This document shows, in pieces, positions 10,595-32,371 of a DNA stretch of 32,740 nucleotides. A program made the translations under genes and the position numbers. Location of the stretch: assembly GCA_023261505.1 (NCBI GenBank), contig JAHFOV010000020.1, forward strand, positions 1 through 32,740. The letters are read 5' to 3'. The DNA is from Planctomycetota bacterium. GTDB taxonomy: Bacteria; Planctomycetota; Brocadiia; Brocadiales; Bathyanammoxibiaceae. How positions within the stretch are numbered: position 1 is the stretch's first letter; each line of letters starts with the position of its first letter. The notes under the pieces were generated by a model that made no database searches, was not told the DNA's origin, and saw nothing but the letters and a program-made list of their open reading frames with translations.

Positions 10595-10601
10595 TAAAGA
10601 C

Positions 10602-10676
10602 AAATTTCAAATTTCAGATTACAAATTTCAAATTTGGAATTTAATGTGTAATTTGAAATCTGCAATTTGTAATTAG
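10602..10676. repeat. AT-rich inverted-repeat cluster between the GTPase gene and cinA
   Basis: Copies of CAAATTTCAAATTTCAGATTAC on one side are answered by AATTTGAAATCTGCAATTTGTAAT on the other, giving a long AT-rich fold-back. It ends only a few bases before the TTG start of cinA, so it may lower or modulate cinA translation. Confidence 0.55.
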
Positions 10677-10683
10677 ATTTAAA

Positions 10684-12012
10684 TTGAAGACCGCAGAAAT
10701 TATCGCCACAGGGAATGAGCTTATCCAGGGGGAGGTGACCAACACCAACGCCACCTATATCTCTCAGGAACTGGTTAGAAAAGGGTTAAGCATACTGTAC
10801 CACACCACCGTTGGAGATGAGGTTGTATCTCTTGGTGGGGCCATTGAAAGGGCATTGGAAAGGGCAGATTTGGTTATAATCACAGGGGGTCTCGGCCCTA
10901 CCAGAGATGATGTCACCAGGGAGGCTGTGTCTCTTGCATGCCATAGAAAATTAGTCATGGATAAGGAAGCACTGGCCCACATCCAGAATCTCTTCCGCTG
11001 CCGCCATCAGGAGATGCCCGAGTCTAACCTCCGGCAGGCAATGCTTCCTAAGGGGGCTATATTAATCCCTAATAAGATAGGCACCGCCCCAGGATTTTGC
11101 CTCTCCCTCCCCGTTGACGGGGAGGGTAGGGAGGGGTTAACGGGTAAGGAAATTATTTGTCTCCCAGGCGTGCCAGAGGAAATGAAAGGGATGTTTCATG
11201 AATGGGTAATTCCGCACCTAGAAAGGCTTATACCCAAAAAGAGACATACCCTATTAAAGAAGATACATATATTTGGACTCCCCGAGGCCCTTGTGGGGGA
11301 GAAGATTAGCTATTTGATGTCGCCTGAGGCTAACCCCAAGGTCGGTACAATGGTTCATGAAGGCATAATCACCCTCCGCCTGCAGGCTGAGGCAGAGGAG
11401 GAAGCCAAGGCCAGGAACATGCTCGAAGGGGCGGAACAGGAGATACGACAGCTGCTGGGAGAGGCCGTATTCGGCGTAGAAGAAGAAAATCTGGGGGATG
11501 CCGTAGCCTCCCTCCTCATGAAGCACGGTCTTACTGTAGCCGTGGCCGAGTCCTGTACGGGGGGGCTGGTGTGTGACCTTCTAACAAATGTGCCAGGTAT
11601 TTCTAAGCACCTTCTAGGAGGAATGGTTGTCTATACAGTAAAGACTAAGGCCCTCCTTACTGGCCTCCCTGAAGAAAGTATAGAACAAATAGGCACAGTG
11701 AACCCGGAGATAACCAAACTCCTGGCCTCCGCTATTAGAGAAAGAACCGGTGCAGACATTGGCCTTGCTGTGACAGGCGTAGCCGGCCCCACAAGCCCTC
11801 ATCCAGATATACCTGTTGGGCTCGTCTACATTGCCCTGGCCACAAAAGGAAAATGTAGGGACAGGTCCTCAGACCTGTCCGAAGAGAACCAATGTACCGT
11901 AAAAGAATTCCGCTTCAGCGGCACCCGAAAATGGATAAAACTCCTTGCCGCAAAGCATGCGCTGAATATGGTGAGGTTAAACCTGTTAGAGTTGGAAAGA
12001 GCGTGTGTTTAA
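10684..12012 (+). CDS. cinA: CinA-family protein (MoaB-like domain + NMN amidohydrolase)
   Basis: 442 residues, longer than the usual ~410-415. The N-terminal molybdopterin-binding-like domain begins K-T-A-E-I-I-A-T-G-N-E-L and has G-G-L-G-P-T-R-D-D. The C-terminal nicotinamide-mononucleotide amidohydrolase domain carries V-A-V-A-E-S-C-T-G-G-L, with catalytic Ser and Cys, and T-G-V-A-G-P. The enzyme deamidates NMN in pyridine-nucleotide salvage. The extra length is explained by two in-frame palindromic repeats, at 11105-11126 (loop in the N-terminal domain) and 11859-11880 (loop before the final strand). The start is TTG. The 3' end overlaps the longest possible truB frame by 8 bases. Confidence 0.93.
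   Translation: MKTAEIIATGNELIQGEVTNTNATYISQELVRKGLSILYHTTVGDEVVSLGGAIERALERADLVIITGGLGPTRDDVTREAVSLACHRKLVMDKEALAHIQNLFRCRHQEMPESNLRQAMLPKGAILIPNKIGTAPGFCLSLPVDGEGREGLTGKEIICLPGVPEEMKGMFHEWVIPHLERLIPKKRHTLLKKIHIFGLPEALVGEKISYLMSPEANPKVGTMVHEGIITLRLQAEAEEEAKARNMLEGAEQEIRQLLGEAVFGVEEENLGDAVASLLMKHGLTVAVAESCTGGLVCDLLTNVPGISKHLLGGMVVYTVKTKALLTGLPEESIEQIGTVNPEITKLLASAIRERTGADIGLAVTGVAGPTSPHPDIPVGLVYIALATKGKCRDRSSDLSEENQCTVKEFRFSGTRKWIKLLAAKHALNMVRLNLLELERACV
11105..11126. repeat. In-frame palindrome inside cinA (copy a)
   Basis: CCCTCCCCGT at 11105-11114 pairs with ACGGGGAGGG at 11117-11126, a 10-bp stem. GGGAGGGG follows directly. Translated in the cinA frame it adds a L-P-V-D-G-E-G-R-E-G-L loop without breaking the frame. 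Confidence 0.7.
11859..11880. repeat. In-frame palindrome inside cinA (copy b)
   Basis: GGACAGGTC at 11859-11867 and GACCTGTCC at 11872-11880 form a perfect 9-bp stem with a 4-base loop. The encoded C-R-D-R-S-S-D-L-S-E segment separates two normally adjacent CinA strands (V-Y-I-A-L-A-T and V-K-E-F-R-F-S-G), so it looks like an inserted element. Confidence 0.75.
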
Positions 12013-12064
12013 AAGGCATGGCTATTCTTCGCTCTCCTCATTCAGGTCGAGACTTTGGCTCAGA

Positions 12065-12943
12065 ATGAAAAATATGCTAAAGGAGGTTGAAAAGGGGGTA
12101 ATACTGATAAACAAGCCTGTAGGCATTACTTCGTTTGGGGTGGTAGCCAGGGTAAGGGGGAAATATTTCCCGGGACAAAAGGTGGGGCATACTGGTACGC
12201 TGGATCACATGGCCTCTGGATTGCTGATACTCCTTGTGGGAGAGGCTACTAAAGGGCAGGGAGATTTTATGAAACTTCCCAAGGAATACGAGGGTGAGTT
12301 CGCCTTGGGGTTGGAGAGCGATACCTATAGTGCAGATGGGCGTCTCAGGTTCTATTACCTTTGCCACACAAGCCCGCCACCGGCCAATACTAATAAGGAT
12401 GTAGCGTGCGACCTTGTGTCACACGTGGGGAGACTTACCAACGTGCCAGACAAGTCGTGCCTGAGGCAGATTCGCTTCGGCGAACTGGCACGCTACACTT
12501 CCATAAAAAGTGAAGAGATAGAGACAGTCTTTAAAAGGTTTCTAGGGGAACTAGAGCAGGCCGTGCCACCCTTTTCTGCTGTGCAGGTAAAAGGCGAGAG
12601 ACTGCATAAGCTGGCCAGAAAGGGGCGGCCTCTGCCAGAATTACCCAGAAGGAGGATTTATGTCGAAAGCCTGAAATTGTTAGATTTTAAACCCTTTATC
12701 CTTGTAGGGGCATCCGCCTCAGGCGGACACGTACCCCTACCTAGCCCGGAAGATTTCTTAAAAAAAATAGCCCCGAGGGTAATGTTCAGGACATGTGTCT
12801 CTTCCGGAACATATATAAGGTCTTTGGTGGTAGACATCGGTAAGGAACTAGGCACAGGGGCAATCCTTACTCAATTGACACGTACAAGGATAGGCCCTTA
12901 TAAGCTCTCCGATGCTATTGAACTACCCATTGATATTGGATAA
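12065..12943 (+). CDS. truB: tRNA pseudouridine-55 synthase with two repeat insertions
   Basis: TruB makes pseudouridine 55 in the T-arm of tRNAs. Seen: I-L-I-N-K-P-V-G-I-T-S-F, the catalytic block V-G-H-T-G-T-L-D-H-M-A-S-G-L-L (with the family's Asp nucleophile), L-E-S-D-T-Y-S-A-D-G, P-P-F-S-A-V-Q-V-K-G-E-R-L, and C-S-S-G-T-Y-I-R-S-L-V-V-D-I-G. From the ATG at 12065 the protein is ~292 residues. A GTG at 12005 lies inside cinA and would add a non-conserved tail; an ATG at 12074 is also possible. Between the 'D-T...D-G' block and 'F-L-G-E-L-E-Q' about 45 residues are extra, including a 96-base in-frame repeat. A second repeat adds G-A-S-A-S-G-G-H later. All core motifs are intact, so the enzyme is probably active. 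Confidence 0.93.
   Translation: MKNMLKEVEKGVILINKPVGITSFGVVARVRGKYFPGQKVGHTGTLDHMASGLLILLVGEATKGQGDFMKLPKEYEGEFALGLESDTYSADGRLRFYYLCHTSPPPANTNKDVACDLVSHVGRLTNVPDKSCLRQIRFGELARYTSIKSEEIETVFKRFLGELEQAVPPFSAVQVKGERLHKLARKGRPLPELPRRRIYVESLKLLDFKPFILVGASASGGHVPLPSPEDFLKKIAPRVMFRTCVSSGTYIRSLVVDIGKELGTGAILTQLTRTRIGPYKLSDAIELPIDIG
12401..12496. repeat. 96-base in-frame repeat in truB with GTAGCGTG / CACGCTAC ends
   Basis: GTAGCGTG at 12401-12408 is inverted as CACGCTAC at 12489-12496. The span is exactly 96 bases (32 codons) and is read through in frame. The same ends occur in the intergenic element at 15805-15875. Inside are further small palindromes such as TTCGC-TTCGGCGAA. Confidence 0.75.
12704..12740. 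repeat. In-frame nested palindrome in truB (GTAGGGG...CCCCTAC)
   Basis: The outer arms GTAGGGG (12704-12710) and CCCCTAC (12734-12740) enclose the inner stem TCCGCCT-C-AGGCGGA (12713-12727). It is translated as V-G-A-S-A-S-G-G-H-V-P-L. The outer arms match the element at 16255-16282 and the inner stem matches 7816-7843. Confidence 0.78.
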
Positions 12944-12973
12944 AAAAGAAGTCCAATGAAAGGCTACTAAACC

Positions 12974-14008
12974 GTGAAAATAGTAGAATGTGTACCCAAC
13001 TTCAGCGAAGGGAGAGATTTGGATAAAATCAGGGCGATTGTTAAGGAGGTAAAATCTACCCCGGAGGTGAAGCTCCTGGGGGTGGAAGAAAATCCTGATT
13101 ATAATCGGACTGTTGTGACATTTGCCGGTAGTCCCGATGGGGTGAAGGAGGCTGCAAGGAAGGCCATCGCCAGGGTAGGTGAACTTATAGATATGTCGTG
13201 CCATAAAGGTAGCCACCCCAGGATAGGTGCGGCGGATGTGGTACCTTTTGTGCCCATTCGTGGGGTCACTATGGAGGAGTGCGTTGATCTGGCAGTGGAA
13301 CTGGCAAGGGAGGTGGGGGAGGGGTTGGGTATACCGGTTTATTTGTATCGTGAGGCAGCAAGGAAACCTGAGCGTAGAGAGCTTTCGTACATCAGGAGAG
13401 GGGAATACGAGGCGCTGCCAGAAAAGTTAGTCAGTGAGAGACCCGACTTTGGCCCCTGTGAGTTTAATGAAAGGGTCAGACGTACAGGAGCCACGGTCAT
13501 AGGAGCAAGGAAGCTCCTTATTGCTTATAACGTAGACCTTGCTACCCCAGACCTGGCAATTGCCAATAAGATTTCTGGCAGGGTGAGAGAGACAGGGGTT
13601 ATTAGGAAAACTAATGGCAAAGAGCGTATACCAGGACTTCTGAAGCAGGTGCAGGCGATGGGGGTTAAACTTAGTACAGGCATAACCCAGGTCTCCATGA
13701 ACCTACTGGATTACGAGGTTACGCCTCCCCATGTGGCCCTGGAGGCTGTCAGGAAAGAGGCTAAGGCCCTTGGGGTAGAAGTAACCGCAAGCGAGATAGT
13801 AGGACTTGTGAGCCTTGAGCCTCTCCTAATGGCAGGGAGGTTTTATCTCAGCAGTTTAATCCCCCCTCACCCCCCTTTATTAAAGGGGGGAAGGAGGGAT
13901 TCTGAAGAGGAATTGGTGCGGGCAGCAATAAAGGGGCTGGCCCTCAGGGACTTTGAACCACGAAAGAAGATAATTGAACATGCCCTGGACCTTGGAACTA
14001 AGGATTAG
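12974..14008 (+). CDS. ftcD: Glutamate formimidoyltransferase (formiminotransferase domains only)
   Basis: It transfers the formimino group between formiminoglutamate and tetrahydrofolate. It opens with the family signature M-K-I-V-E-C-V-P-N-F-S-E-G-R from a GTG start, and has S-H-P-R-I-G-A-A-D-V-V-P-F with the catalytic His region. Length is 344, so there is no cyclodeaminase domain fused. A palindromic repeat inserted near the C-terminus gives a P-P-H-P-P-L-L-K-G-G loop. Tetrahydrofolate chemistry connects it with the metF/metV module next door, which lies on the opposite strand, end to end with it. In one-carbon-metabolising anaerobes the enzyme can feed C1 units into folate. That role here is inference. 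Confidence 0.93.
   Translation: MKIVECVPNFSEGRDLDKIRAIVKEVKSTPEVKLLGVEENPDYNRTVVTFAGSPDGVKEAARKAIARVGELIDMSCHKGSHPRIGAADVVPFVPIRGVTMEECVDLAVELAREVGEGLGIPVYLYREAARKPERRELSYIRRGEYEALPEKLVSERPDFGPCEFNERVRRTGATVIGARKLLIAYNVDLATPDLAIANKISGRVRETGVIRKTNGKERIPGLLKQVQAMGVKLSTGITQVSMNLLDYEVTPPHVALEAVRKEAKALGVEVTASEIVGLVSLEPLLMAGRFYLSSLIPPHPPLLKGGRRDSEEELVRAAIKGLALRDFEPRKKIIEHALDLGTKD
13858..13902. repeat. In-frame CCCCCCTTTA/TAAAGGGGGG palindrome inside ftcD
   Basis: CCCCCCTTTA (13870-13879) pairs with TAAAGGGGGG (13881-13890). The flanks AATCCC... and ...GGGATT extend the pairing imperfectly. It encodes I-P-P-H-P-P-L-L-K-G-G-R-R, a translation product of a repeat type seen scattered in many genomes, and separates otherwise conserved FtcD segments. 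Confidence 0.75.
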
Positions 14009-15109: not shown

Positions 15110-15781
15110 TTACTGCCTACTATCTACCTTCCTCAGGTGCTCCATTATCATTCTTTGGGGTCTGACTGACCAGTCCTTGGGTGGCCTGATAACGTCCAGT
15201 TCTTCCCCCATGCCTAATTGCTCCATGCGCTCGTAAATAAGTTGCCAGACGCAAGGAGTGTCAGGAGAGACCTCACAGCGGCCTCCCTGGGAACCGCCGC
15301 AAGGACCGTTCATAAGACTTTTGGCGCATCTTGCCACAGGGCAGAAACCTCCTGTCTCTCCCACGATACATTCTCCGCATCCGACACACCTCTCCCAATA
15401 TAGCCCTGGTTCTATGGTGGCCCCCATGAATATGGTATCCACCCCCGGCAAGACCTTTATCCTGGGAAACCTCTCCGCCAGGCATTGTACCCCCACTCCA
15501 CAGGCCAGGGATATAACTACTTCCCAATCATTGGCCCTATCATTTATAGACTCTACGAACTCTGGTTCGCATTGCCGGGTGAGGGTAGCTTCCGTCACTA
15601 CCACATCTTTACCTTGCCTCTTAGCCCAGAGTCTGAGCAAGGAGGCCAGTTCTTCGGCCTGTTTCTGTCCGCCGATGGAACGCACTGTTACGCACCCACC
15701 GCAGCCCAGAACGGCCACCTTTTTATAGTTTTGAATGAGCCTTATTATCTCTTCAAAAGATTTTGGCCTGGCAACAATCAT
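15110..15781 (-). CDS. metV: MetV: methylenetetrahydrofolate reductase zinc/Fe-S partner subunit
   Basis: The open frame reaches 15862, but the upstream part is a palindromic repeat. The ATG at 15781 follows AAAGGTG and starts M-I-V-A-R-P-K-S, the usual MetV beginning. Cys motifs: L-G-C-G-G-C near the start, L-A-C-G-V-G-V-Q-C, then C-V-G-C-G-E-C, G-G-F-C-P-V-A-R-C-A and N-G-P-C-G-G. These match the MTHFR C-terminal domain family that forms a complex with MetF and carries Fe-S clusters and zinc. The C-terminus runs into a low-complexity TACTATTTACTGCCTACTATC stretch, so the last few residues may be repeat-derived. Confidence 0.9.
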   Translation of the reverse strand: MIVARPKSFEEIIRLIQNYKKVAVLGCGGCVTVRSIGGQKQAEELASLLRLWAKRQGKDVVVTEATLTRQCEPEFVESINDRANDWEVVISLACGVGVQCLAERFPRIKVLPGVDTIFMGATIEPGLYWERCVGCGECIVGETGGFCPVARCAKSLMNGPCGGSQGGRCEVSPDTPCVWQLIYERMEQLGMGEELDVIRPPKDWSVRPQRMIMEHLRKVDSRQ

Positions 15782-15804
15782 TTTTTTACACCTTTGGTTT
15801 TTAT

Positions 15805-15875
15805 GTAGCGTGCGACCTAGTGTCGCACGCCTTTTATCCGTTGTTTGGAACGTGCGAGGCAAGCTCGCACGCTAC
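15805..15875. repeat. 71-base composite palindrome with GTAGCGTGCGA / TCGCACGCTAC ends
   Basis: The outer arms at 15805-15815 and 15865-15875 are perfect inverted copies. Inside are two hairpins: GCGTGCGAC-CTAGT-GTCGCACGC (15808-15830) and CGTGCGAG-GCAAG-CTCGCACG (15851-15871). It lies between metV and the flavoprotein gene, in the metV leader, and is a longer-armed relative of the truB insert at 12401-12496. Confidence 0.85.
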
Positions 15876-15881
15876 ACCTAA

Positions 15882-17933
15882 TCAAACAATTTGAAATACT
15901 GGGCCGAGTTTTTTAATCTCCTCCACAAAATTGCTGAGCGACTTGAAAAATTCTTCCTCAGGAGTTGGAGAGAGCCACTGGAGTCTCTGCCTCTCAAGTC
16001 CTAGCGTCTCCAGGAACAAAGCAGTATAGTCAAATCTTCTCTTAGCCCAGGTGTGGCCCGCATCAAAGTGGCAGTCCCCGGACTGGGAGCCTATAATTAC
16101 AACTGCATCTGCAAGCATCTCAAATGCCTTGAGGAGGGTGCGAGGTTCTAACTTGCTTATGCAGGAAACCTCTACAACCTTTATGCCGTTTTCTCTTAGT
16201 TTTTGAGATACGGTCTGAGAGTGAGAGTCATACTGGCATAAGAATGCTACTATAGTAGGGGCGTATTGCAATATGCCCCTACCAGGAATTTGGCCCATAA
16301 CTGATTCTAGTGTCTTCTCCCCCATATCCTCGTATCTGTCTTTTAGGGAGATGGCATTTGCAGGGCATTCCACCACGCAGACCCCACACGACTGGCAGTC
16401 TGGGCCTATCTCGGCAGTCCTCCCTCCAAGGGGTATCTGCGGGATGTCATAGGGGCAGACTCTTACACAGGTAAGGCAGGCGGCGCAAAGCTCTGGGTCA
16501 ACCACTGCCCCGGCAGCGCAGTTGAGGCATCGTCTTGCCTCTTTAACGGCCTGTTCTTCTGGAAAGCCTAGTTCCACTTCATTGAAATCCTTTATCCTGG
16601 ACTCAACAGGGAGCATGGGCATCCTTTGTCTCGCCTCTCTCTTTATAAGCTGGACCCTGGGAGGTGATAATTCTTTTATTGGTTCAGTTCTGACAGGTAT
16701 CTGAAATCTTTCTCCTCTAAGGTAATTGTGAATAGAAAGAGCGGTCTGGTTACCGTGGGCTATGGCCTGTACTAAAGTACCTCCTAATGTAACAGCGTCT
16801 CCTCCCGCAAAGACCCAGGGTATGGTGGTTGACATAGTATGATTATCTATTTTTATAGTCCCTTTTTCGCTTATTTCCACGCCGTTTTTGGAAAGGAGGT
16901 CTACCTCGGGGGATTGGCCTATTGCAACAATGACGGTGTCCACCTGGAGGGTGAATCCCGAGCCTGGAAGGGGAATGGGCCTTCTCCTACCACTATTATC
17001 AGGCTCTCCCAGGGTCATTTTTATGCACCTTAGACCAGTTACCCTGTTCTTTCCGAAAATCTTAGCGGGGGTGGTCAGCAGGACAAATTTTATACCTTCC
17101 TCTTCCGCCTCCTTCCTCCCCACTGTTTCGCAAGGCATCTCTTCCATGCTCCTGCGGTATATAAGGCTAACGTCTCTCGCGCCCATACGTAGTGCCGCTC
17201 GGGCAGCGTCTAATGCAGTATCTCCCCCACCAATGACTGCCACTCTATTATCTACTTTTACGCCTCCACCGAGGGTTATCTGGCGTAAAAATTCAATGCC
17301 AGAAATCACCCCAGGTAGCTCTTCCCCTGGGATGTCCAGCTTCAAGGGTTTATGAGAACCTACAGCGAGGAACACCGCCTTGAAGCCTTCTCTCTGCAAG
17401 TCAGAAAGAGTGATGTCTCTACCCACTTTTATTCCAGTCCTGAGCTGCGCACCAAGAGAGAGGATGTTGTTAATGTCCTTATCCAGGGATTCCCTGGGTA
17501 AACGATAGCGGGGGACACCAACACGTAGCATGCCCCCTGGTTCTTGAAGTTCTTCAAATATTACACACTTATAGCCGAGGAGAATAAGGCTATTGGCTGC
17601 TGAGAGCCCTGCTGGCCCGGCTCCCACAATGGCCACCGTTTCAGGATATTCTTTCGGAGGCTTGGGCAAGTTAGGAGTGAAATCCTTATCAGCCAGGAAG
17701 CGCTTTAGCCAGCAAATGGCAACAGGCTCATCCACTGACGTCCTTCTACATGCCTCCTCGCAACGTCGTGTACAGATGCGTCCACAGGAGGCAGGGAAGG
17801 GGTTTTTTGACCTTACTATCTGAAAGGCCTGTTCAAAATTCCTTCGGGCTAGAAGTTGCACATAATCTCTAGCGTCTTGATTAATAGGGCAGGCTACTAT
17901 ACAAGGCGCCTCCCCTTTTATTTTTATGTTCAA
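15882..17933 (-). CDS. GltD-like FAD/NAD(P) oxidoreductase - ferredoxin - MvhD fusion
   Basis: About 683 residues. The N-terminal Cys-rich domain (C-I-V-A-C-P..., C-G-R-I-C-T-R-R-C-E-E-A-C) matches the Fe-S domain of glutamate synthase beta subunit. Two Rossmann motifs follow, V-G-A-G-P-A-G-L (FAD) and V-I-G-G-G-D-T-A-L (NAD(P)H). Next is a 2[4Fe-4S] ferredoxin domain (C-A-A-C-L-T-C-V-R-V-C-P and C-Q-S-C-G-V-C-V-V-E-C-P). The last ~140 residues are an MvhD/FlpD [2Fe-2S] domain: V-S-C-I-S-K-L-E-P and G-D-C-H-F are kept, but its usual double-Cys opening has become L-C-Q-Y. It probably passes NAD(P)H electrons to MetV/MetF. The TTG at 17933 fits the AAAGGAG Shine-Dalgarno better than the GTG at 17939. 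The linker before MvhD contains an in-frame palindrome. Confidence 0.85.
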   Translation of the reverse strand: MNIKIKGEAPCIVACPINQDARDYVQLLARRNFEQAFQIVRSKNPFPASCGRICTRRCEEACRRTSVDEPVAICWLKRFLADKDFTPNLPKPPKEYPETVAIVGAGPAGLSAANSLILLGYKCVIFEELQEPGGMLRVGVPRYRLPRESLDKDINNILSLGAQLRTGIKVGRDITLSDLQREGFKAVFLAVGSHKPLKLDIPGEELPGVISGIEFLRQITLGGGVKVDNRVAVIGGGDTALDAARAALRMGARDVSLIYRRSMEEMPCETVGRKEAEEEGIKFVLLTTPAKIFGKNRVTGLRCIKMTLGEPDNSGRRRPIPLPGSGFTLQVDTVIVAIGQSPEVDLLSKNGVEISEKGTIKIDNHTMSTTIPWVFAGGDAVTLGGTLVQAIAHGNQTALSIHNYLRGERFQIPVRTEPIKELSPPRVQLIKREARQRMPMLPVESRIKDFNEVELGFPEEQAVKEARRCLNCAAGAVVDPELCAACLTCVRVCPYDIPQIPLGGRTAEIGPDCQSCGVCVVECPANAISLKDRYEDMGEKTLESVMGQIPGRGILQYAPTIVAFLCQYDSHSQTVSQKLRENGIKVVEVSCISKLEPRTLLKAFEMLADAVVIIGSQSGDCHFDAGHTWAKRRFDYTALFLETLGLERQRLQWLSPTPEEEFFKSLSNFVEEIKKLGPVFQIV
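16255..16282. repeat. Palindrome inside the interdomain linker of the GltD-MvhD fusion
   Basis: GTAGGGGC (16255-16262) and GCCCCTAC (16275-16282) flank TATT-GC-AATA, giving an almost perfect 28-base palindrome. On the coding strand it reads G-I-L-Q-Y-A-P and sits exactly between the ferredoxin part and the MvhD domain. Its ends equal those of the truB element at 12704-12740. Confidence 0.78.
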
Positions 17934-17950
17934 TCTCACTCCTTTAAGAG

Positions 17951-24473: not shown

Positions 24474-27400
24474 ATGGAGATTTCCAGACGCGAATTCCTA
24501 AAGTATACAGGGATGGCCACAGGAGGAGCTATGGCCACGGGGTTGAAGCTCCGCTTCCTGGAGGCCCAGGAGGAGATTCCTAACCCCCTGGAACATTACC
24601 CTGATAGAAACTGGGAGAAGGTTTACAGAGACCAGTATGCCTATGATAGAACCTTCACCTTTTGTTGTGTCCCCAACGATACCCATAACTGTAGATTGAG
24701 GGCATTTGTAAGGAATGGCATTGTAACAAGGATAGAGCAAAACTATGATAATGCATTAGTTGAGGATATTTATGGTAATAAAGCTACCCCTATGTGGAAT
24801 CCACGGGGTTGCCTGAAGGGATATACCCTGGTTAGAAGGGTGTATGGCCCCTACAGAATAAAGTATCCCATGGTGCGTAAGGGCTGGATGGAATGGGTAG
24901 AAGGTGGCTTCCCTGACTCAACGCTCCCTGAAAACCAAGAAAAATATTTCCAGAGAGATAGAGATACATGGGTAAGGGTCTCCTGGGATTATGCCTTCAC
25001 CCTGGTCGCGAAGGGATTGCTTCATGTAATGGAGACGTATGGCGGAGAGAAGGGGGCTGAACTCCTCAGGAAGCAGGGCTATCCGGAAGAGATGATTGAG
25101 GCCGCTCATGGTACAGGGGCCCGCTGCATAAAAATCCGTCCCGGTATGGGATTCCTAGGTATGACTCGTATTTACGGTTCAGTCGTGCGCTTCTGCAATA
25201 TGCTGGCCCTTTACGATGGTAAAGGTGGCGCACGTAACTGGTCAAACTATACATGGCACGGTGACCTCGGACCAGGACATCCTATGGTCTCTGGTATCCA
25301 GACTTTTGATTCGGACCTCAACGACTTCCGCCATGCCAAACTCATGGTATTCAGTGGCAAAAACATGGTGGAAAACAAGATGCCTGATGCCCATTGGTGG
25401 ATAGAGATAATGGAGAGGGGCGGGAAGATTGTAAATATCTCCCCAGAATATAGCCCAGCCTCCCAAAAGGCCGATTATTGGGTACCAGTAAGGCCAGGCT
25501 CTGACGTGGCACTAATGCTTGGAGTGGCCCATCTCCTGATAAAGAACAATTGGTATGAAGTAGACTTTGTAAAACAGTACACCGATCTACCCCTTTTGGT
25601 CAGGTTAGATAACCTTAAGATTCTCAGGGCCGCAGATATTATCCCAGGCTACAAGAACAAGGAACTCACCGGTTACAGCAAGAAGGTGCAAATTATCGAT
25701 CCTCAAATGAGAGAAGAGTGGGGTGACTTTGTGGTTTGGGATACCAAGAGCAACAGTGCCAAGGTCATTACGCGCGAGGATGTAGGTAAACACTTTGCCG
25801 CTATGGGTATTGACCCCGCCCTTGAAGGAAGCTTCAAGGTCAAGACTGTGGATGGCAAGGAGATAGAGGCAAAGCCCAGCTTCCAGCTCTATAAAGAGCT
25901 TTGCGCTGAGTACGACCCTGACACAACACAGGAGATAACCAGCACCCCCAAGGAGATGATAGAGCAGCTAGCCAAAGACTTTGCCACCGTTAAGCCAGCC
26001 ATGATTCATACAGGGGAGGGTACTAACCACTACTTCCACTGTGACATTAAGGATAGGATCAACTTCTTGGTGCTTGCCCTTACGGGCAACTTCGGCAAGC
26101 CAGGCGGAGGACCCGGTCACTGGGCAGGTAATTACAAGATTTCCGTCTTCCCAGGGTCATACGTCATGATGGGTGAAGACCCCTTCCACATTAATCTGGA
26201 TCCCAATGCCAAGGTAGAGGACATCAAGGCAAAGAAGTACTTCAAGCCTGAGGAAGTGTGCTACTGGAACTATCAGGACAACATCTTAAAAGTAAAAGGG
26301 AAGTGTTTCACAGGCCAGACCCATATGCCCACCCCCAGCAAGGTTATATGGTTTGCAAATGTGAACCTAATTAATAATGCGAAGTGGGCCTACGAAATGA
26401 TTTACAACACCAATAAGAGGGTGGAGATGATAGTGGCCCAGGATTGGGAGTGGACGGGTAGCTGTGAGGTCTCCGATGTGGTCTTCCCTGTGCACAGTTG
26501 GATGGAACTAACTCAGCCAGACTTTACTGCCTCCTGCTCTAACCCCTTCTTACAGCTCTGGAAGGGTGGAATAAAGCCACTTTACGACAGCAAGCAGGAT
26601 TCTGAGATATTTGCTGGTGTGGCTGTCAAGCTAGCCGAACTAACAGGAGACACTCGCTACAAGGACTACTGGAAGTTTATCCTGGAAGGGAAGACAGAGG
26701 TATACATACAGCGTATGTTTGACGCCTGTATTACTACCCAGGGTTATAAGGTAGATGAACTTCTCAAGGCAGACAGGGGCGCCTTAATGCTCTTCCGTAC
26801 TTATCCCAGGATAACAGGCTGGGAGCAGATTCAAGAATCCAAGCCTTTCTACAATAAGACGGGGAGACTTGAGTTCTACAGGGATGAGGATGAGTTTATT
26901 GAATACGGAGAGAATCTGATTGTCTTCCGTGAACCAGTGGAGGCCACGCCTTATCTGCCTAACGTTATTGTGTCCGCGCATCCAGCCATAAGGCCAAATG
27001 ACTACGGCATACCACTTGATGCCACCAGTGCGGATGAGCGCTCTGTTAGAAACGTCAAGATGCCTTGGAAGGAGGTAAAGAAGACCAAAAACTTCCTCTG
27101 GGAGAAAGGTTATCGTTTCTACTGCCTCACCCCCAAGACCCGTCACAGGGTGCATTCCTCCTGGAGTACAGCAGACTGGAACCTCATCTGGGATAGCAAC
27201 TACGGTGACCCATACCGTATGGACAAGAGGACCCCAGGAGTGGGCGAGCACCAGATTCATTTAAATCCTGAGGATGCTAAGGAAATGGGCATCAATGACG
27301 GTGACTATGTATATGTAGATGCTAATCCTGCTGACAGACCCTACGTTGGTTGGAAGCCTGACGACCCCAATTACAAGGTGTCCCGCCTGATGCTCCGGGC

Positions 27401-27827
27401 AAAGTACAACCCAGCTTATCCAAGAGGAGTAACCATGATGAAGCACGCGCCTTTCATGGCCCTTTGGAAGACGGTAAAGGCCCACGAGAGCAGACCGGAT
27501 GGTAGGGCCGTTTCTCAGGATACGGGCTATCAGGCCAACTTCCGTTACGGCTCTCAACAGTCCTTGACTAGGGGTTGGCTACAGCCCACCATGATGACCG
27601 ACAGTCTAGTAAGGAAAAATATCATGGGTCAGGGTATCGGCAAGGGGTACGAGATAGACGTCCATGCCCCCAACACCTGTCCCAAGGAGACCTTGATAAG
27701 GATATGCAAGGCTGAGGATGGAGGTATAGAGGGCAGAGGTCCGTGGGAGCCTGCCAGGACTGGTCTCACCCCGGCCCAAGAAAACGAGACCATGAAGAAT
27801 TACCTAGCTGGTAAGTTCATCGTCTAA
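24474..27827 (+). CDS. nxrA: NXR-type periplasmic nitrite/nitrate oxidoreductase catalytic subunit
   Basis: 1117 residues, close to the usual NxrA size. The Tat signal S-R-R-E-F-L-K (4-10) places it in the periplasm. The N-terminal [4Fe-4S] site reads C65-xxx-D69-xxx-C73 (C-V-P-N-D-T-H-N-C) with C113 following; Asp stands where NarG has Cys. The Mo-bis-MGD ligand is the Asp of T-W-H-G-D-L (D264), as in the type II DMSO reductase family. C-terminal dinucleotide-binding regions include H-Q-I-H-L-N-P-E-D-A. This enzyme interconverts nitrite and nitrate. Direction, and exclusion of related substrates (chlorate, selenate), cannot be settled by eye. GGGAGG precedes the ATG. nxrB follows after 51 bases. 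Confidence 0.86.
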   Translation: MEISRREFLKYTGMATGGAMATGLKLRFLEAQEEIPNPLEHYPDRNWEKVYRDQYAYDRTFTFCCVPNDTHNCRLRAFVRNGIVTRIEQNYDNALVEDIYGNKATPMWNPRGCLKGYTLVRRVYGPYRIKYPMVRKGWMEWVEGGFPDSTLPENQEKYFQRDRDTWVRVSWDYAFTLVAKGLLHVMETYGGEKGAELLRKQGYPEEMIEAAHGTGARCIKIRPGMGFLGMTRIYGSVVRFCNMLALYDGKGGARNWSNYTWHGDLGPGHPMVSGIQTFDSDLNDFRHAKLMVFSGKNMVENKMPDAHWWIEIMERGGKIVNISPEYSPASQKADYWVPVRPGSDVALMLGVAHLLIKNNWYEVDFVKQYTDLPLLVRLDNLKILRAADIIPGYKNKELTGYSKKVQIIDPQMREEWGDFVVWDTKSNSAKVITREDVGKHFAAMGIDPALEGSFKVKTVDGKEIEAKPSFQLYKELCAEYDPDTTQEITSTPKEMIEQLAKDFATVKPAMIHTGEGTNHYFHCDIKDRINFLVLALTGNFGKPGGGPGHWAGNYKISVFPGSYVMMGEDPFHINLDPNAKVEDIKAKKYFKPEEVCYWNYQDNILKVKGKCFTGQTHMPTPSKVIWFANVNLINNAKWAYEMIYNTNKRVEMIVAQDWEWTGSCEVSDVVFPVHSWMELTQPDFTASCSNPFLQLWKGGIKPLYDSKQDSEIFAGVAVKLAELTGDTRYKDYWKFILEGKTEVYIQRMFDACITTQGYKVDELLKADRGALMLFRTYPRITGWEQIQESKPFYNKTGRLEFYRDEDEFIEYGENLIVFREPVEATPYLPNVIVSAHPAIRPNDYGIPLDATSADERSVRNVKMPWKEVKKTKNFLWEKGYRFYCLTPKTRHRVHSSWSTADWNLIWDSNYGDPYRMDKRTPGVGEHQIHLNPEDAKEMGINDGDYVYVDANPADRPYVGWKPDDPNYKVSRLMLRAKYNPAYPRGVTMMKHAPFMALWKTVKAHESRPDGRAVSQDTGYQANFRYGSQQSLTRGWLQPTMMTDSLVRKNIMGQGIGKGYEIDVHAPNTCPKETLIRICKAEDGGIEGRGPWEPARTGLTPAQENETMKNYLAGKFIV

Positions 27828-27878
27828 AGGACACCTCTGTGAAAAGGGCAAAAGTTTTTTAGGATTAGGAGGAAACTC

Positions 27879-29048
27879 ATGACAAAGGTTTACAATTGGC
27901 AGCTGGGTCGGGAGATGGAGTACCCTTATGAGGCCGCCCGCCCAAAGAGGCAATTTGCTGCAGTTTTTAATATAAATCGTTGCATAGGTTGTCAAACCTG
28001 TACCATGGCTTGTAAAAGCACCTGGACCTTCTCTAAGGGACAGGAGTATATGTGGTGGAATAACGTGGAGACCAAGCCTTTTGGTGGTTATCCACAGTCC
28101 TGGGATGCCAAGACCTTGGCAATTCTCGGCCCACAACCAGGCTATGATACTAGCAGCAAGGACAAGGATGCTCCATATGGCAAATACAAAGGGGACACCC
28201 TGTTTGAGGCTGCTGGAAAGAGGATAGACGCCAGCGGACAGAAGGCCCTAGGGTATGTCCCAGAGGATAAAGAGTGGCGGGCTCCAAACTTTTTTGAAGA
28301 TACCGCTAACCGTTCTCCCAAAACCGTCAACGGGGTACAGGAGGGCGCCTCACTCCCAGAACATCAAATATTCTTTTTCTACATGCAGAGGATTTGTAAT
28401 CACTGCACCTACCCCGCATGTCTAGCGGCCTGCCCCAGAAAGGCTATCTACAAGAGGCCTGAGGATGGAATAGTCCTGATAGACCAGAGCCGATGCCGGG
28501 GCTACAGGAAATGCGTAGAACAGTGCCCTTATAAGAAACCCATGTTCAACGGGCAGACCAGGGTCTCTGAGAAATGCATAGCTTGCTACCCCAGGGTAGA
28601 GGGTAAAGATCCCCTGACTCAGGGGGAGCCTATGATTACCCGTTGCATATCTGCCTGTGTGGGTAAGATAAGATTGCAAGGGTGGGTAGATGACCCCGAT
28701 AGCCCTGTCAATTACCTGGTCAGGAAGGAAAAGGTTGCTCTGCCCTTGTATCCTCAATTTGGAACTGAGCCTAATGTGTACTATATACCGCCCAGGTGGG
28801 CACCAAGGAACTACCTATACCAGATGTTTGGCCCTGGGGTGGATGAAGCCATAGCAAAGTACACAAACCCGTCACATGAACTCCTTGCTGTACTACAGCT
28901 CTTCGGCGTAACACAGAAACTCGTCTACTGCTACGAGGTCACCGCAGATACCACAATCGCTTATGGTAGGGAGCATAAGGAAATCATTAGGGTACCTATT
29001 AACGAGCAAGTGCTAGTCAGAGATGAGAAGCACCTGAACGTAACTTAA
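27879..29048 (+). CDS. nxrB: NXR/Nar-type four-cluster iron-sulfur subunit
   Basis: 389 residues. Cys sets: C35-C38-C41-C45 (C-I-G-C-Q-T-C-T-M-A-C), C173-C176-C181-C185 (C-N-H-C...C-L-A-A-C-P), C206-Y209-C212-C216 (C-R-G-Y-R-K-C-V-E-Q-C-P) and C233-C236-C256-C260. Fifteen Cys, with Tyr at the position that makes one cluster [3Fe-4S] (NarH has Trp there), match the electron-transfer subunit of Nar/NXR enzymes. There is no signal peptide, so it is expected to be carried out with NxrA by the Tat system. Strong Shine-Dalgarno TAGGAGG. Electrons would flow between the NxrA active site and the heme b of NxrC. Confidence 0.92.
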   Translation: MTKVYNWQLGREMEYPYEAARPKRQFAAVFNINRCIGCQTCTMACKSTWTFSKGQEYMWWNNVETKPFGGYPQSWDAKTLAILGPQPGYDTSSKDKDAPYGKYKGDTLFEAAGKRIDASGQKALGYVPEDKEWRAPNFFEDTANRSPKTVNGVQEGASLPEHQIFFFYMQRICNHCTYPACLAACPRKAIYKRPEDGIVLIDQSRCRGYRKCVEQCPYKKPMFNGQTRVSEKCIACYPRVEGKDPLTQGEPMITRCISACVGKIRLQGWVDDPDSPVNYLVRKEKVALPLYPQFGTEPNVYYIPPRWAPRNYLYQMFGPGVDEAIAKYTNPSHELLAVLQLFGVTQKLVYCYEVTADTTIAYGREHKEIIRVPINEQVLVRDEKHLNVT

Positions 29049-29050
29049 AC

Positions 29051-29099
29051 TTGTCCTGAGCCTTCGGCCCGAGCTCAGGCCGAGGGCTTGCCGAAGGAA
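29051..29099. repeat. Palindromic intergenic repeat after nxrB
   Basis: CCTTCGGC (29061-29068) pairs with GCCGAAGG (29090-29097), and CCTGAGC (29055-29061) with GCTCAGG (29073-29079); alternative folds are possible. It belongs to the widespread TTCGGCAAGCTCAGGA-like repeat type. It fills the gap between nxrB and the chaperone gene and could also attenuate or stabilise the mRNA. Confidence 0.65.
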
Positions 29100-29110
29100 A
29101 AGGAGCTGTG

Positions 29111-29887
29111 ATGCAAGAAGTTGTAAAAGGAGTTGAGACCGGAGAGGCCTCTAACGAAGAAAGGGCTAAAAAGGCCCTGGCCAGGAGTATCCTTTATGGC
29201 TTTCTATCCAGGGGATTTGCCTATCCCACGGAAGAGGGCTTAAAGGAGATAAAGACTGGTGCCACTGCCAGGGAGCTGAAGGATTCCGCCTCTTGCTTGG
29301 GGGAAGAACTTCTGGACTCTGTGGAGTCACTTTGTGAGGCACTGGAGAGGGAGATAGCCCCTCTTGGGCTGAGGGATATGGAGGGGGGATACAACAGGCT
29401 ATTTTCCATGGGCCTATTGTGTCCCCACCACGAAACGTTTTACGCCTCTGCCCATGTCTTTATGAAGAGCCAGGATATGGCAGACATCCGAGGTTTCTAT
29501 GAGGCCTTTGGCTTTCGTCTCTCAGAGAAGGAGAAGGAACTGGCTGATTTTATAGGGACGGAGCTGGAGTTTATGTATGTGCTCTGCTTCAAGGAGTACC
29601 ACGCAATAGAAAAGGGTGCGGTGGATAAAGCTAATATCTGCCGTGAGACACAGGCCAAATTTTTGGAGGGCCATCTTGGCACATGGGCAGAGGCATTTTC
29701 TAAGACCCTTTCATCTGTTGCTCACATGGACTACTTTATAACTTTGGCAAAATTGCTGAAGGAATGTATAGACTTTGACTGTAGATACTTAGGAGTTAGT
29801 CCTAAACGAGTGGTACTGCCTGAAGAAGGGTGGAAACAGGCCGCGGAGCCCTTTACTTGTGGAGAGAATCCACAAGACCTGAAGTAA
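29111..29887 (+). CDS. TorD/NarJ-type molybdoenzyme assembly chaperone
   Basis: About 258 residues, all helical, from the ATG at 29111 after AAAAGGAG; a GTG at 29108 is possible. Family marks: S-I-L-Y-G-F-L-S-R-G-F-A-Y-P near the start, Y-N-R-L-F-S-M-G at ~100, and the C-P-H-H-E-T-F-Y and D-I-R-G-F-Y-E-A-F-G-F region that is the signature of TorD/DmsD/NarJ proteins. These bind the Tat signal and apo-enzyme until the molybdenum cofactor is inserted. Position right after nxrAB makes NxrA the evident client. It is a cytoplasmic protein not present in the mature enzyme. Confidence 0.88.
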   Translation: MQEVVKGVETGEASNEERAKKALARSILYGFLSRGFAYPTEEGLKEIKTGATARELKDSASCLGEELLDSVESLCEALEREIAPLGLRDMEGGYNRLFSMGLLCPHHETFYASAHVFMKSQDMADIRGFYEAFGFRLSEKEKELADFIGTELEFMYVLCFKEYHAIEKGAVDKANICRETQAKFLEGHLGTWAEAFSKTLSSVAHMDYFITLAKLLKECIDFDCRYLGVSPKRVVLPEEGWKQAAEPFTCGENPQDLK

Positions 29888-29976
29888 AAACCCCTCTCTT
29901 TTCATCATAAGTGTTAAGTGAAGTGTTTTTGTGCTTGGGCATAATTTTTTGACAAGCGGCAAGGGAGAATTCTTGC

Positions 29977-30537
29977 GTGGAAACAAAGGCAACTAATATG
30001 GAAGAAAAAACTGGAGCTGTCGAAGCGGTTCCCGTTAAGGAAGATACCGGATTGGCGGAGGGGAGCCGCAGGTCTTTTCTTTTAAAACTGGGCTGGGCTG
30101 GTTTTGCTCTTTTTCAAGTTACATGGATAGTATCCTTCATGAGGTTCTTCTTTCCACGCTGTCTCTTTGAGCCTCCAATGACCTTTAAGGCGGGCTTTCC
30201 GTGGGAGTACACTATTGGTTCAGTAAGCACGAGATGGCAGAAGGAGTACAGGGTTTGGGTAGTCAGAGAGAGTGAGGGTTTTTATGCCCTATTTGGCCAG
30301 TGCACTCACCTTGGTTGTACACCTGTGTGGTGGGAGGGGGAGAATAAATTTAAGTGTCCCTGTCATGGTAGCGGTTTTACCAAGGAAGGGATAAACTACG
30401 AAGGCCCAGCGCCCAGACCTCTGGAGAGGGTAAAGATAGCCCTGGCGGCCGATGGACAGCTCCTAGTGGACAAGTCCGTTCGCTTTAGGCAGGAAAGAGG
30501 CGAATGGGAAAAGCCAGGGGCCTTCCTTAAGGTGTAG
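29977..30537 (+). CDS. Rieske [2Fe-2S] protein of a cytochrome bc-type complex
   Basis: 186 residues. A twin-Arg S-R-R-S-F-L-L-K followed by one hydrophobic helix (~38-58) is the usual Tat signal anchor of Rieske proteins. The cluster motifs are C109-T-H111-L-G-C114 and C127-P-C-H130-G-S: Cys109, His111, Cys127 and His130 hold the cluster, and Cys114 and Cys129 form the disulfide. The GTG at 29977 has GGGAG at a proper distance; an ATG at 29998 is the alternative. It takes electrons from quinol at the Qo site and hands them to cytochrome c. It is directly followed by cytochrome b. Confidence 0.95.
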   Translation: METKATNMEEKTGAVEAVPVKEDTGLAEGSRRSFLLKLGWAGFALFQVTWIVSFMRFFFPRCLFEPPMTFKAGFPWEYTIGSVSTRWQKEYRVWVVRESEGFYALFGQCTHLGCTPVWWEGENKFKCPCHGSGFTKEGINYEGPAPRPLERVKIALAADGQLLVDKSVRFRQERGEWEKPGAFLKV

Positions 30538-30586
30538 AGTCTACCAGAGGATACCCACATGAGAAATATCTTGAAGGGAAAAATTT

Positions 30587-31363
30587 ATGCTGACTGAACA
30601 GAAAGAAAAGATAAAGGACATTGTAACTAAATCACAGGTATACAAATCCATCTTCCGTAGAGGCTTTGGGGATACCCCAAGGAATCGCGCCCTGGCCATC
30701 TTGGGTAATGTATTCCTCCATCTACATCCACCTTATGTAATGCGTCATGCACTGAAGTTTACACATAGCTGGTGTATGGGTGGCATTACCTTTCTTCTCT
30801 TCATAGTCCTTTGTTTTACCGGAGTATTCCTGTGTTTCTATTATCACCCTGACAAAATTAATGCATACAGGGACATGAAGTATTTTGAGTATGATGTCCC
30901 TTTCGGGGTAGTTCTAAGGAACATGCATCGTTGGGCGGCCCACCTGATGGTTATTACCGTATGGCTTCATATGACCAGGGTTTTTATGACCGGGGCTTAC
31001 AAACCTCCCAGGGAGTTTAACTGGGCAGTAGGAGTAATCCTGCTGGTTTTGACTTTACTTCTCAGCTTTACAGGTTATTTGCTGCCCGATGACCAGCTGG
31101 GTTTCTGGGCTGTGACGGTAGGCACTAACATGGCCAGGGCTACACCGCTACTTGGCCATGAGGGTCCTTTTGGTGAACAATTAGGGGCCACAGCCTACAA
31201 TGATATTCGCTTTGCCCTCCTTGGAGGTTCAGTGGTAGGTGGAAATGCCCTTCTAAGGGCATACGTGTGGCACTGTGTAGCCATGCCTGTAACAGCCATT
31301 ATCTTCTTGGCCGTACACTTCTGGAGGACTAGAAAAGATGGTGGTACGGCAGGACCACTATAG
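30587..31363 (+). CDS. Cytochrome b (b6-type N-terminal half)
   Basis: 258 residues with four main membrane helices. The heme ligands are H114 and H128 in helix B (H-x13-H) and H229 and H244 in helix D (H-x14-H). The 14-residue spacing in helix D is the b6f-type pattern. [15 protein letters not shown] matches the Qo-side segment. The C-terminal half of classical cytochrome b is missing because it is encoded by the next gene, as in b6f-like and Gram-positive bc complexes. It forms the quinol-oxidising core with the Rieske protein. Confidence 0.93.
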
Positions 31364-31396
31364 ATTAAAGAGTAGATTACAGAGGATTAAACATTC

Positions 31397-32371
31397 ATGT
31401 GGCACAATATCTGGATAATAGCTAGTAAACCCGACAACATCCCTATCGTAGGGATGCTCGTTCTTGTACTCTTTTTTGGGTTCCTCTCTTTCTGGTTGGC
31501 CTTTAAGAATGACCGAATAAGAAGGGCTGCCGCCGTAAGGCCAAAACCTGAAAGTGGAAAGGCCAAAAGGGACGCGGTAGATGTAATAGATATTATGTAT
31601 CCAGAATCAGAGCAGGGGCTGCCTAAGAAGGTCAGTTGCTGGCCCCATCTGGTTAAACTGGAGTTTATATGCGCAATAGCAGTAATGGCCTTGCTCATGT
31701 TCTGGTCCATACCCATAGACGCACCGCTGGAAGAACCTTCGGACCCCACACTCACCCCCAATCCCTCTAAAGCGCCGTGGTACTTCCTGGGGTTACAAGA
31801 TATGCTGGTTTACTTTGACCCGTGGATTGCCGGGGTGTTGCTCCCTACCTTTATAATAGTAGGACTAATGGTTATACCTTACATAGATGTTAATCCTAAG
31901 GGTAATGGTTACTACACCTTTGCTGAGAGACCCTTTGCAATACTGACGTACTGGTTTGGCTTCTTTGTGCTTTGGGTATTGGAGATAGTTATTGGTACCT
32001 TCTGCCGTGGGCCAGGGTGGATGTTCTTCTGGCCTGGTCAGGAATGGGACCCACATAGGGTGGTTGCAGAGGTGAACATAAACTGGAATGAGTTCCTTGC
32101 AAACATTACTGGCGTAACCACACTGAAGACTGAGACTGCGGGGCTCCTTCTAGGTATCATTACGATCCTTACATATTTTGGGCTCGGGATGCTAATACCC
32201 TATCTTTGGCTCAAGAAGCGTAGTGCCCCAATAATAGACCAATTAGGGCTCATCCGCTACAGCGTAGTCGGCTTTTTCTTCTGGACGATGATGGCTCTGT
32301 CCATCAAGATTGTCCTTCGTCTTGCGTTTTCTATCAAGTACATCCTGGTTACACCCTGGTTTAATATCTGA
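31397..32371 (+). CDS. Cytochrome b subunit-IV-like protein with N- and C-terminal extensions
   Basis: 324 residues, about twice the size of b6f subunit IV. An N-terminal helix (~15-36) is followed by a charged cytoplasmic loop. The core has the Qo motif P-W-Y-F (127-130, corresponding to PEWY) in K-A-P-W-Y-F-L-G-L-Q-D-M-L, and helices with D-P-W-I-A-G-V-L-L-P and the conserved P-Y-I-D-V-N-P-K-G. The last ~130 residues add further helices (I-T-I-L-T-Y-F-G-L-G-M-L, V-G-F-F-F-W-T-M-M-A-L) not present in standard subunit IV. It completes cytochrome b with the upstream gene. Confidence 0.85.
   Translation: MWHNIWIIASKPDNIPIVGMLVLVLFFGFLSFWLAFKNDRIRRAAAVRPKPESGKAKRDAVDVIDIMYPESEQGLPKKVSCWPHLVKLEFICAIAVMALLMFWSIPIDAPLEEPSDPTLTPNPSKAPWYFLGLQDMLVYFDPWIAGVLLPTFIIVGLMVIPYIDVNPKGNGYYTFAERPFAILTYWFGFFVLWVLEIVIGTFCRGPGWMFFWPGQEWDPHRVVAEVNINWNEFLANITGVTTLKTETAGLLLGIITILTYFGLGMLIPYLWLKKRSAPIIDQLGLIRYSVVGFFFWTMMALSIKIVLRLAFSIKYILVTPWFNI

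Follow-up and report, generated by a model that had tools for sequence, protein, structure and literature searches.

In-frame copies of dispersed palindromic repeat families in conserved genes of a Brocadiales bacterium

Three consecutive genes of a Planctomycetota bacterium from the anammox order Brocadiales, cinA, truB and ftcD, contain palindromes that lie in frame within their coding sequences, which raises the question of what these palindromes are and how conserved enzymes came to carry them. The genes lie in a 32,740-nucleotide stretch of DNA (contig JAHFOV010000020.1; hereafter, the window). We compared the genome holding the window (G000) with the related genomes G005, G001, G007, G003 and G002, using G003 and G002 as ortholog outgroups. 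The nearest named relatives by CinA are Planctomycetota JACQVQ010000012 (G005) and Candidatus Brocadiaceae JASEHG010000199, at 78% CinA identity. The sampled DNA, taken as stretches, comprises 812 kb of G000, picked in part for holding matches, and 1,145 kb of G005, with open reading frames (ORFs) called by a simple length rule. We consider it very likely that at least five families of interspersed palindromic repeats, short and non-autonomous, gave rise to the palindromes, and that frame-keeping, loop-placed insertions of these repeats are tolerated and translated.

Palindromes of the window and their dispersed families

The features of the window that bear on this question are:

(i) 10684..12012, + strand: cinA, host of two inserts (Pfam CinA, MoCF_biosynth and CinA_KH; NCBIfam PRK00549).

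(ii) 11105-11126 (11101..11139 with its edge, CTCTCCCTCCCCGTTGACGGGGAGGGTAGGGAG): C-rich F4 palindrome CCCTCCCCGTTGACGGGGAGGG in cinA, adding PVDGEGREGL (10 aa).

(iii) 11859-11880 (11855..11880 with the GTAG tag, which overlaps GGACAGGTCCTCAGACCTGTCC): F3 palindrome GGACAGGTCCTCAGACCTGTCC in cinA, adding about 13 aa (GKCRDRSSDLSEE).

(iv) 12005..12943, + strand: truB, host of two inserts (TIGR00431; Pfam TruB_N in two stretches, split by the first insert).

(v) 12400-12497: F2 composite GTAGCGTGC...GCACGCTAC in truB, a REPIN-like pair of facing hairpins of 96-98 bp with perfect 10-nt ends (TGTAGCGTGC/GCACGCTACA).

(vi) 12704-12740: second truB palindrome GTAGGGGCATCCGCCTCAGGCGGACACGTACCCCTAC, with F1 arms (GTAGGGG/CCCCTAC) around an F6 core (TCCGCCTCAGGCGGA).

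(vii) 12974..14008, + strand: ftcD, glutamate formimidoyltransferase (TIGR02024), host of one insert.

(viii) About 13858-13902: F5 palindrome AATCCCCCCTCACCCCCCTTTATTAAAGGGGGGAAGGAGGGATT in ftcD (AATCCCCCC..GGGATT; family form AATCCCCC..GGGGGATT).

(ix) 15805..15875: F2 element at the 5' end of a - strand gene (15110-15862), probably untranslated because the conserved start of that gene looks to be downstream.

(x) 16255-16282: F1 palindrome GTAGGGGCGTATTGCAATATGCCCCTAC, in frame in an FAD/FlpD oxidoreductase gene (15882-17939, - strand).

The five palindromes that the original prediction had placed in cinA, truB and ftcD are all present, every one in frame, and all fold better than dinucleotide shuffles, with z of -2.5 and -3.7 for the cinA elements (11105 and 11859), -3.7 and -4.0 for the truB elements (12400-12497 and 12704-12740) and -2.2 for the ftcD element. 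The sixth copy, at 16255-16282, was not on that list; it has a fold z of -4.2, and G005 has the same core type at the same site. Two other parts of the window deserve mention. Upstream of cinA, at 10601-10677, lie intergenic A+T-rich imperfect inverted repeats (CAAATTTCAAATTTCAGATTAC..), apparently of another repeat class. At 24474-32371, a large molybdopterin oxidoreductase-like gene (1117 aa) is followed by genes for an Fe-S subunit and chaperone-like, Rieske-like and cytochrome b-like proteins, a cluster that, by eye, reads as nitrate reductase or nitrite oxidoreductase.

The five palindromes belong to at least five sequence families dispersed through the genome, in agreement with the earlier suggestion that several distinct families occupy this short region. 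Three families (F1, F2 and F3) carry the tag GTAG, motifs of this group being GTAGGGGC.., GTAGGGACAG.. and, for F2, GTAGCGTGC.. (F3 is composed of GTAG followed by GGACAGGTC..), and two, F4 (first cinA element) and F5 (ftcD), do not. The genome-wide search for further copies found them in abundance for all five families, with control counts near zero. The truB F2 96-mer has 40 matches; GGACAGGTC..GACCTGTCC of F3 occurs at 24 loci with at most three mismatches (2 in the control), the F5 inner stem CCCCCCTTT..AAAGGGGGG has 51 forward matches (1 in the control), and GTAGGGGC..GCCCCTAC has 42 copies (0 in the control). Copy numbers of the F1 palindrome are highest in the sister genus, at 198, 162 and 161, and lower over the order at large.

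These counts bear on the simplest alternative, that the palindromes are ordinary coding sequence, self-complementary by chance or through codon bias. A few in-gene hairpins are indeed common to orthologs as plain homologous sequence, but exact family motifs occur in tens of copies against 0-3 in shuffles, orthologous CinA proteins lack the residues, and the same palindrome DNA is also present in intergenic DNA. The controls reject chance palindromes, to which we assign next to no probability. Assembly error is likewise an unlikely source: a read is longer than the elements, and the same families occupy the same sites in separate assemblies.

Within F1, the outer arms are constant and the cores vary yet stay complementary, the commonest core in G005 being CACGTTGCAACGTG (26 copies). 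Elements of the form GGGG-core-CCCC pair GTA with TAC at both ends in 101 of 154 cases in G005 and 18 of 44 in G000. In ORFs, the F1 tag is read as GTA-GGG in 48 copies and as xGT-AGG in 26; the frame in which TAG is a stop is never used, as must be so. A sequence target motif beside F1 (flanks of GTAG..CTAC copies) was sought and none was found.

Orthologs, protein models and a survey of conserved gene pairs

The CinA proteins of G005, G003 and G002 lack both inserts (10 and 13 residues), and that of G001 lacks the first and has no coverage at the second site. An AF2 model of the window CinA shows the two inserts as low-confidence turns between adjacent strands, with pLDDT below 50 at residues 146-153 (first insert) and 390-400 (second); the model was built from a five-sequence alignment and has a mean pLDDT of 80, so that local detail is approximate.

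For truB, the first insert falls where Thermotoga maritima TruB (1r3e) has about 3 residues between matched blocks, and the same loop of G005 TruB is occupied by another palindromic element, GGGGCACGG..CCGTGCCCCTAC. The second element, at 12704-12740, has a decayed copy at the same codons in G005 truB and is therefore older than the genus split. The idea that residues were added between conserved blocks holds for CinA, where orthologs lack both inserts; this truB element is an old, shared insertion. TruB was found in 2 of 39 relatives with the window protein as query and in 2 of 9 members of the family with the Pfam model, all 14 control genomes being positive; there is therefore no close outgroup for TruB, and its patchy occurrence (12005-12943) possibly reflects acquisition or loss. 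At the ftcD site, the G003 and G002 outgroups carry nothing, whereas relatives carry other palindromes there and at the first truB site. At the same ftcD codon, G005 and G007 have GTAGGGGCGACCGGCCGGTCGCCCCTAC, G001 has GTAGGGGCACGTTGCAACGTGCCCCTAC and G000 its own element, three different palindromes in all.

We surveyed one genome pair, G000 and G005, for in-frame insertions across 299 reciprocal ORF pairs and found 123 internal ones of at least 5 aa. A strong hairpin (stem score of at least 7) is present in 30 of the 123 (24%) against 22 of 492 control segments (4.5%), and a 13-mer occurring at least six times in the sample in 46 of the 123 (37%) against 31 of 984 controls (3.2%); 53 of the insertions show at least one of two features, a stem score of 8 or a repeated 13-mer. 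Elements within the conserved pairs number 42 in G000 and 53 in G005. Recurrent units besides the five include TCCGCCTCAGGCGGA, GTGGCAGGGCCAC and GCCCTGAACC..GGTTCAGGGC, and hosts named by Pfam are PriA, Mfd (TRCF), the carbamoyl-phosphate synthase large chain (carB), SelA, DnaA, HypD and an AIR-synthase family protein. The host genes are conserved and open, and so appear, as far as sequence can tell, to be functional genes that received in-frame insertions. The elements fall in the 6% most variable alignment columns in 31 of 42 cases (G000) and 38 of 53 (G005), an enrichment that is partly circular because an insertion itself makes its column variable.

Sites that hold different palindromes in different genomes

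At the ftcD site and at two sites in priA, G000, G005 and G001 each have a different palindrome and the alignable outgroups have none, while G005 and G001 are about 91-92% identical around these sites. One of the two priA sites lies directly before Walker A. The peptides and reading frames at the same priA site differ (VGAG, CRGD and GEVGT), and the position of the element moves by several bases between genomes; some sites, such as those in priA, resemble replacement of native loop residues and not clean insertion. In a B12 radical-SAM gene and in carB, one junction matches exactly beside a differing core, which, like the ftcD and priA sites, would suggest exchange in place.

Such sites might be taken to mean that each palindrome is kept for a function of its mRNA or DNA hairpin or of the encoded loop, a reading to which stems that remain complementary although their cores vary, and the occupancy of the truB, ftcD and priA sites in several genomes, lend some support. 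We hold it to be improbable: the hosts are unrelated, peptides and frames differ at one and the same site in priA, the outgroups do without the elements, and recent copying also predicts perfect stems. We infer tolerance over benefit.

Template switching at replication forks, which would form palindromes where they stand and with no mobile element, is a further alternative. Local template switching can make perfect hairpins, and the replacement-like priA sites would suit it; identical cores and arms, however, turn up at unlinked places, tens to hundreds of them, and copying between loci is therefore required. We rate an origin purely in place as highly improbable, and return to dispersed, copied repeat families as the preferred reading.

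Whether those families also displace one another at occupied sites can be judged from the rate of coincidence. The same site is occupied in G000 and G005 in 5 cases, where 0.5 would be expected under uniform placement, an excess that looks significant; against placement in variable columns only, 2.8 are expected and the excess is not significant (P=0.14). We therefore make no claim of core swapping and put in-place replacement forward as conjecture. The G000-G005 data need no more than repeated landing in permissive loops, and what still suggests in-place exchange is the three G001-G005 sites. That intragenic sites are rewritten in place, a palindrome giving way time and again to one of another family or core while the flanks diverge more slowly, strikes us as doubtful. 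If true, permissive protein loops would be docking sites that cycle through repeat-encoded peptides.

Candidate mobiliser and relation to known repeats

We propose that palindrome families insert throughout the genome, that copies falling in frame in permissive turns would be tolerated and read in the cell as extra protein loops, and that selection would leave those that are in frame and loop-placed. The GTAG families (F1-F3) are most likely REP/REPIN-type elements, whose spread would be driven by RAYTs, the Y1 HUH transposases of REPs. A RAYT-like gene is present in G000 (L104:1393-2223, - strand), with GTAG-tagged GTAGGGGCGG hairpins clustered around it and present inside it, one of them in frame directly after the HFH motif; these repeats alone, and no other family, are tied to it. 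Among 12 loci checked in the wider order for Y1 transposases carrying these repeats inside, the association was unsupported beyond L104.

Several observations count against this proposal. One Y1 transposase in G000, three in G005 and a few in sister genomes are a small number given how many families there are; F6-F9 and the C-rich F4 and F5 have neither GTAG nor a candidate mobiliser; many F1 copies, most of those in G005, pair the tag, unlike described REPs; F1 showed no flanking target motif; and some sites, as in priA, resemble replacement of native loop residues.

REPs of both the GTAG and the CGTC type, with intragenic copies, facing dimers, a RAYT link and truB as a repeated target, are the subject of Di Nocera et al. 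2013 (PMC3733652), truB being reported as a target in R. conorii, Stenotrophomonas and others (PMC3733652); in recB of two Xanthomonas species, different REPs occupy about the same site (PMC3733652). Judged by sequence, intragenic GTAG-tagged REPs are the nearest known counterparts of the repeats described here. Shared traits are stem-loops of 20-40 bp that bear GTAG at one end (F1, F2 and F3), several families per genome, facing dimers, a possible RAYT link, stem variants that stay complementary, and in-gene copies that include truB and replication or repair genes. In contrast to GTAG REPs, many F1 copies form perfect palindromes in which CTAC pairs with GTAG, and several families lack GTAG. 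GTAG REPs are also predominantly extragenic, whereas here genes hold about as many copies as intergenic DNA does (some 110 of 225 family copies in ORFs of at least 90 aa, by an approximate ORF caller in the partly match-chosen G000 sample). The unpaired-tag descriptor fails for many copies, not for all, because the tag stays unpaired in the L104 repeats and in the cinA copy of F3. Since two REP descriptors, the unpaired tag and the rarity of in-gene copies, fail for many copies, we regard the repeats as a variant of a known phenomenon that is unusually pervasive here. Like REPIN/RAYT systems, the genome has a GTAG-ended pair of facing hairpins, in the truB element of 96-98 bp, and one RAYT with its own repeats; no one-to-one RAYT link to the inserted families is seen, however.

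The resemblance to Rickettsia palindromic elements (RPEs) that was first proposed applies to the process, in-frame palindromes in functional genes being read as extra residues and truB being hit in both cases. It does not extend to the elements: RPE-4 and RPE-6 of R. conorii are CGTC-tagged (PMC3733652), whereas three of our five elements are GTAG-tagged, none has a CGTC end, the phylum is different and there is no sign of an intracellular host. RPEs are thus analogous and belong to another family.

In a lineage other than Rickettsia, insertions derived from repeats can rank as a leading cause of length change in conserved proteins. Two genera with clear outgroups make it possible to test what becomes of selfish DNA in core enzymes such as priA, dnaA, mfd, carB and truB, and the recurrence of truB as a target across phyla points to permissive loops that are used across phyla.
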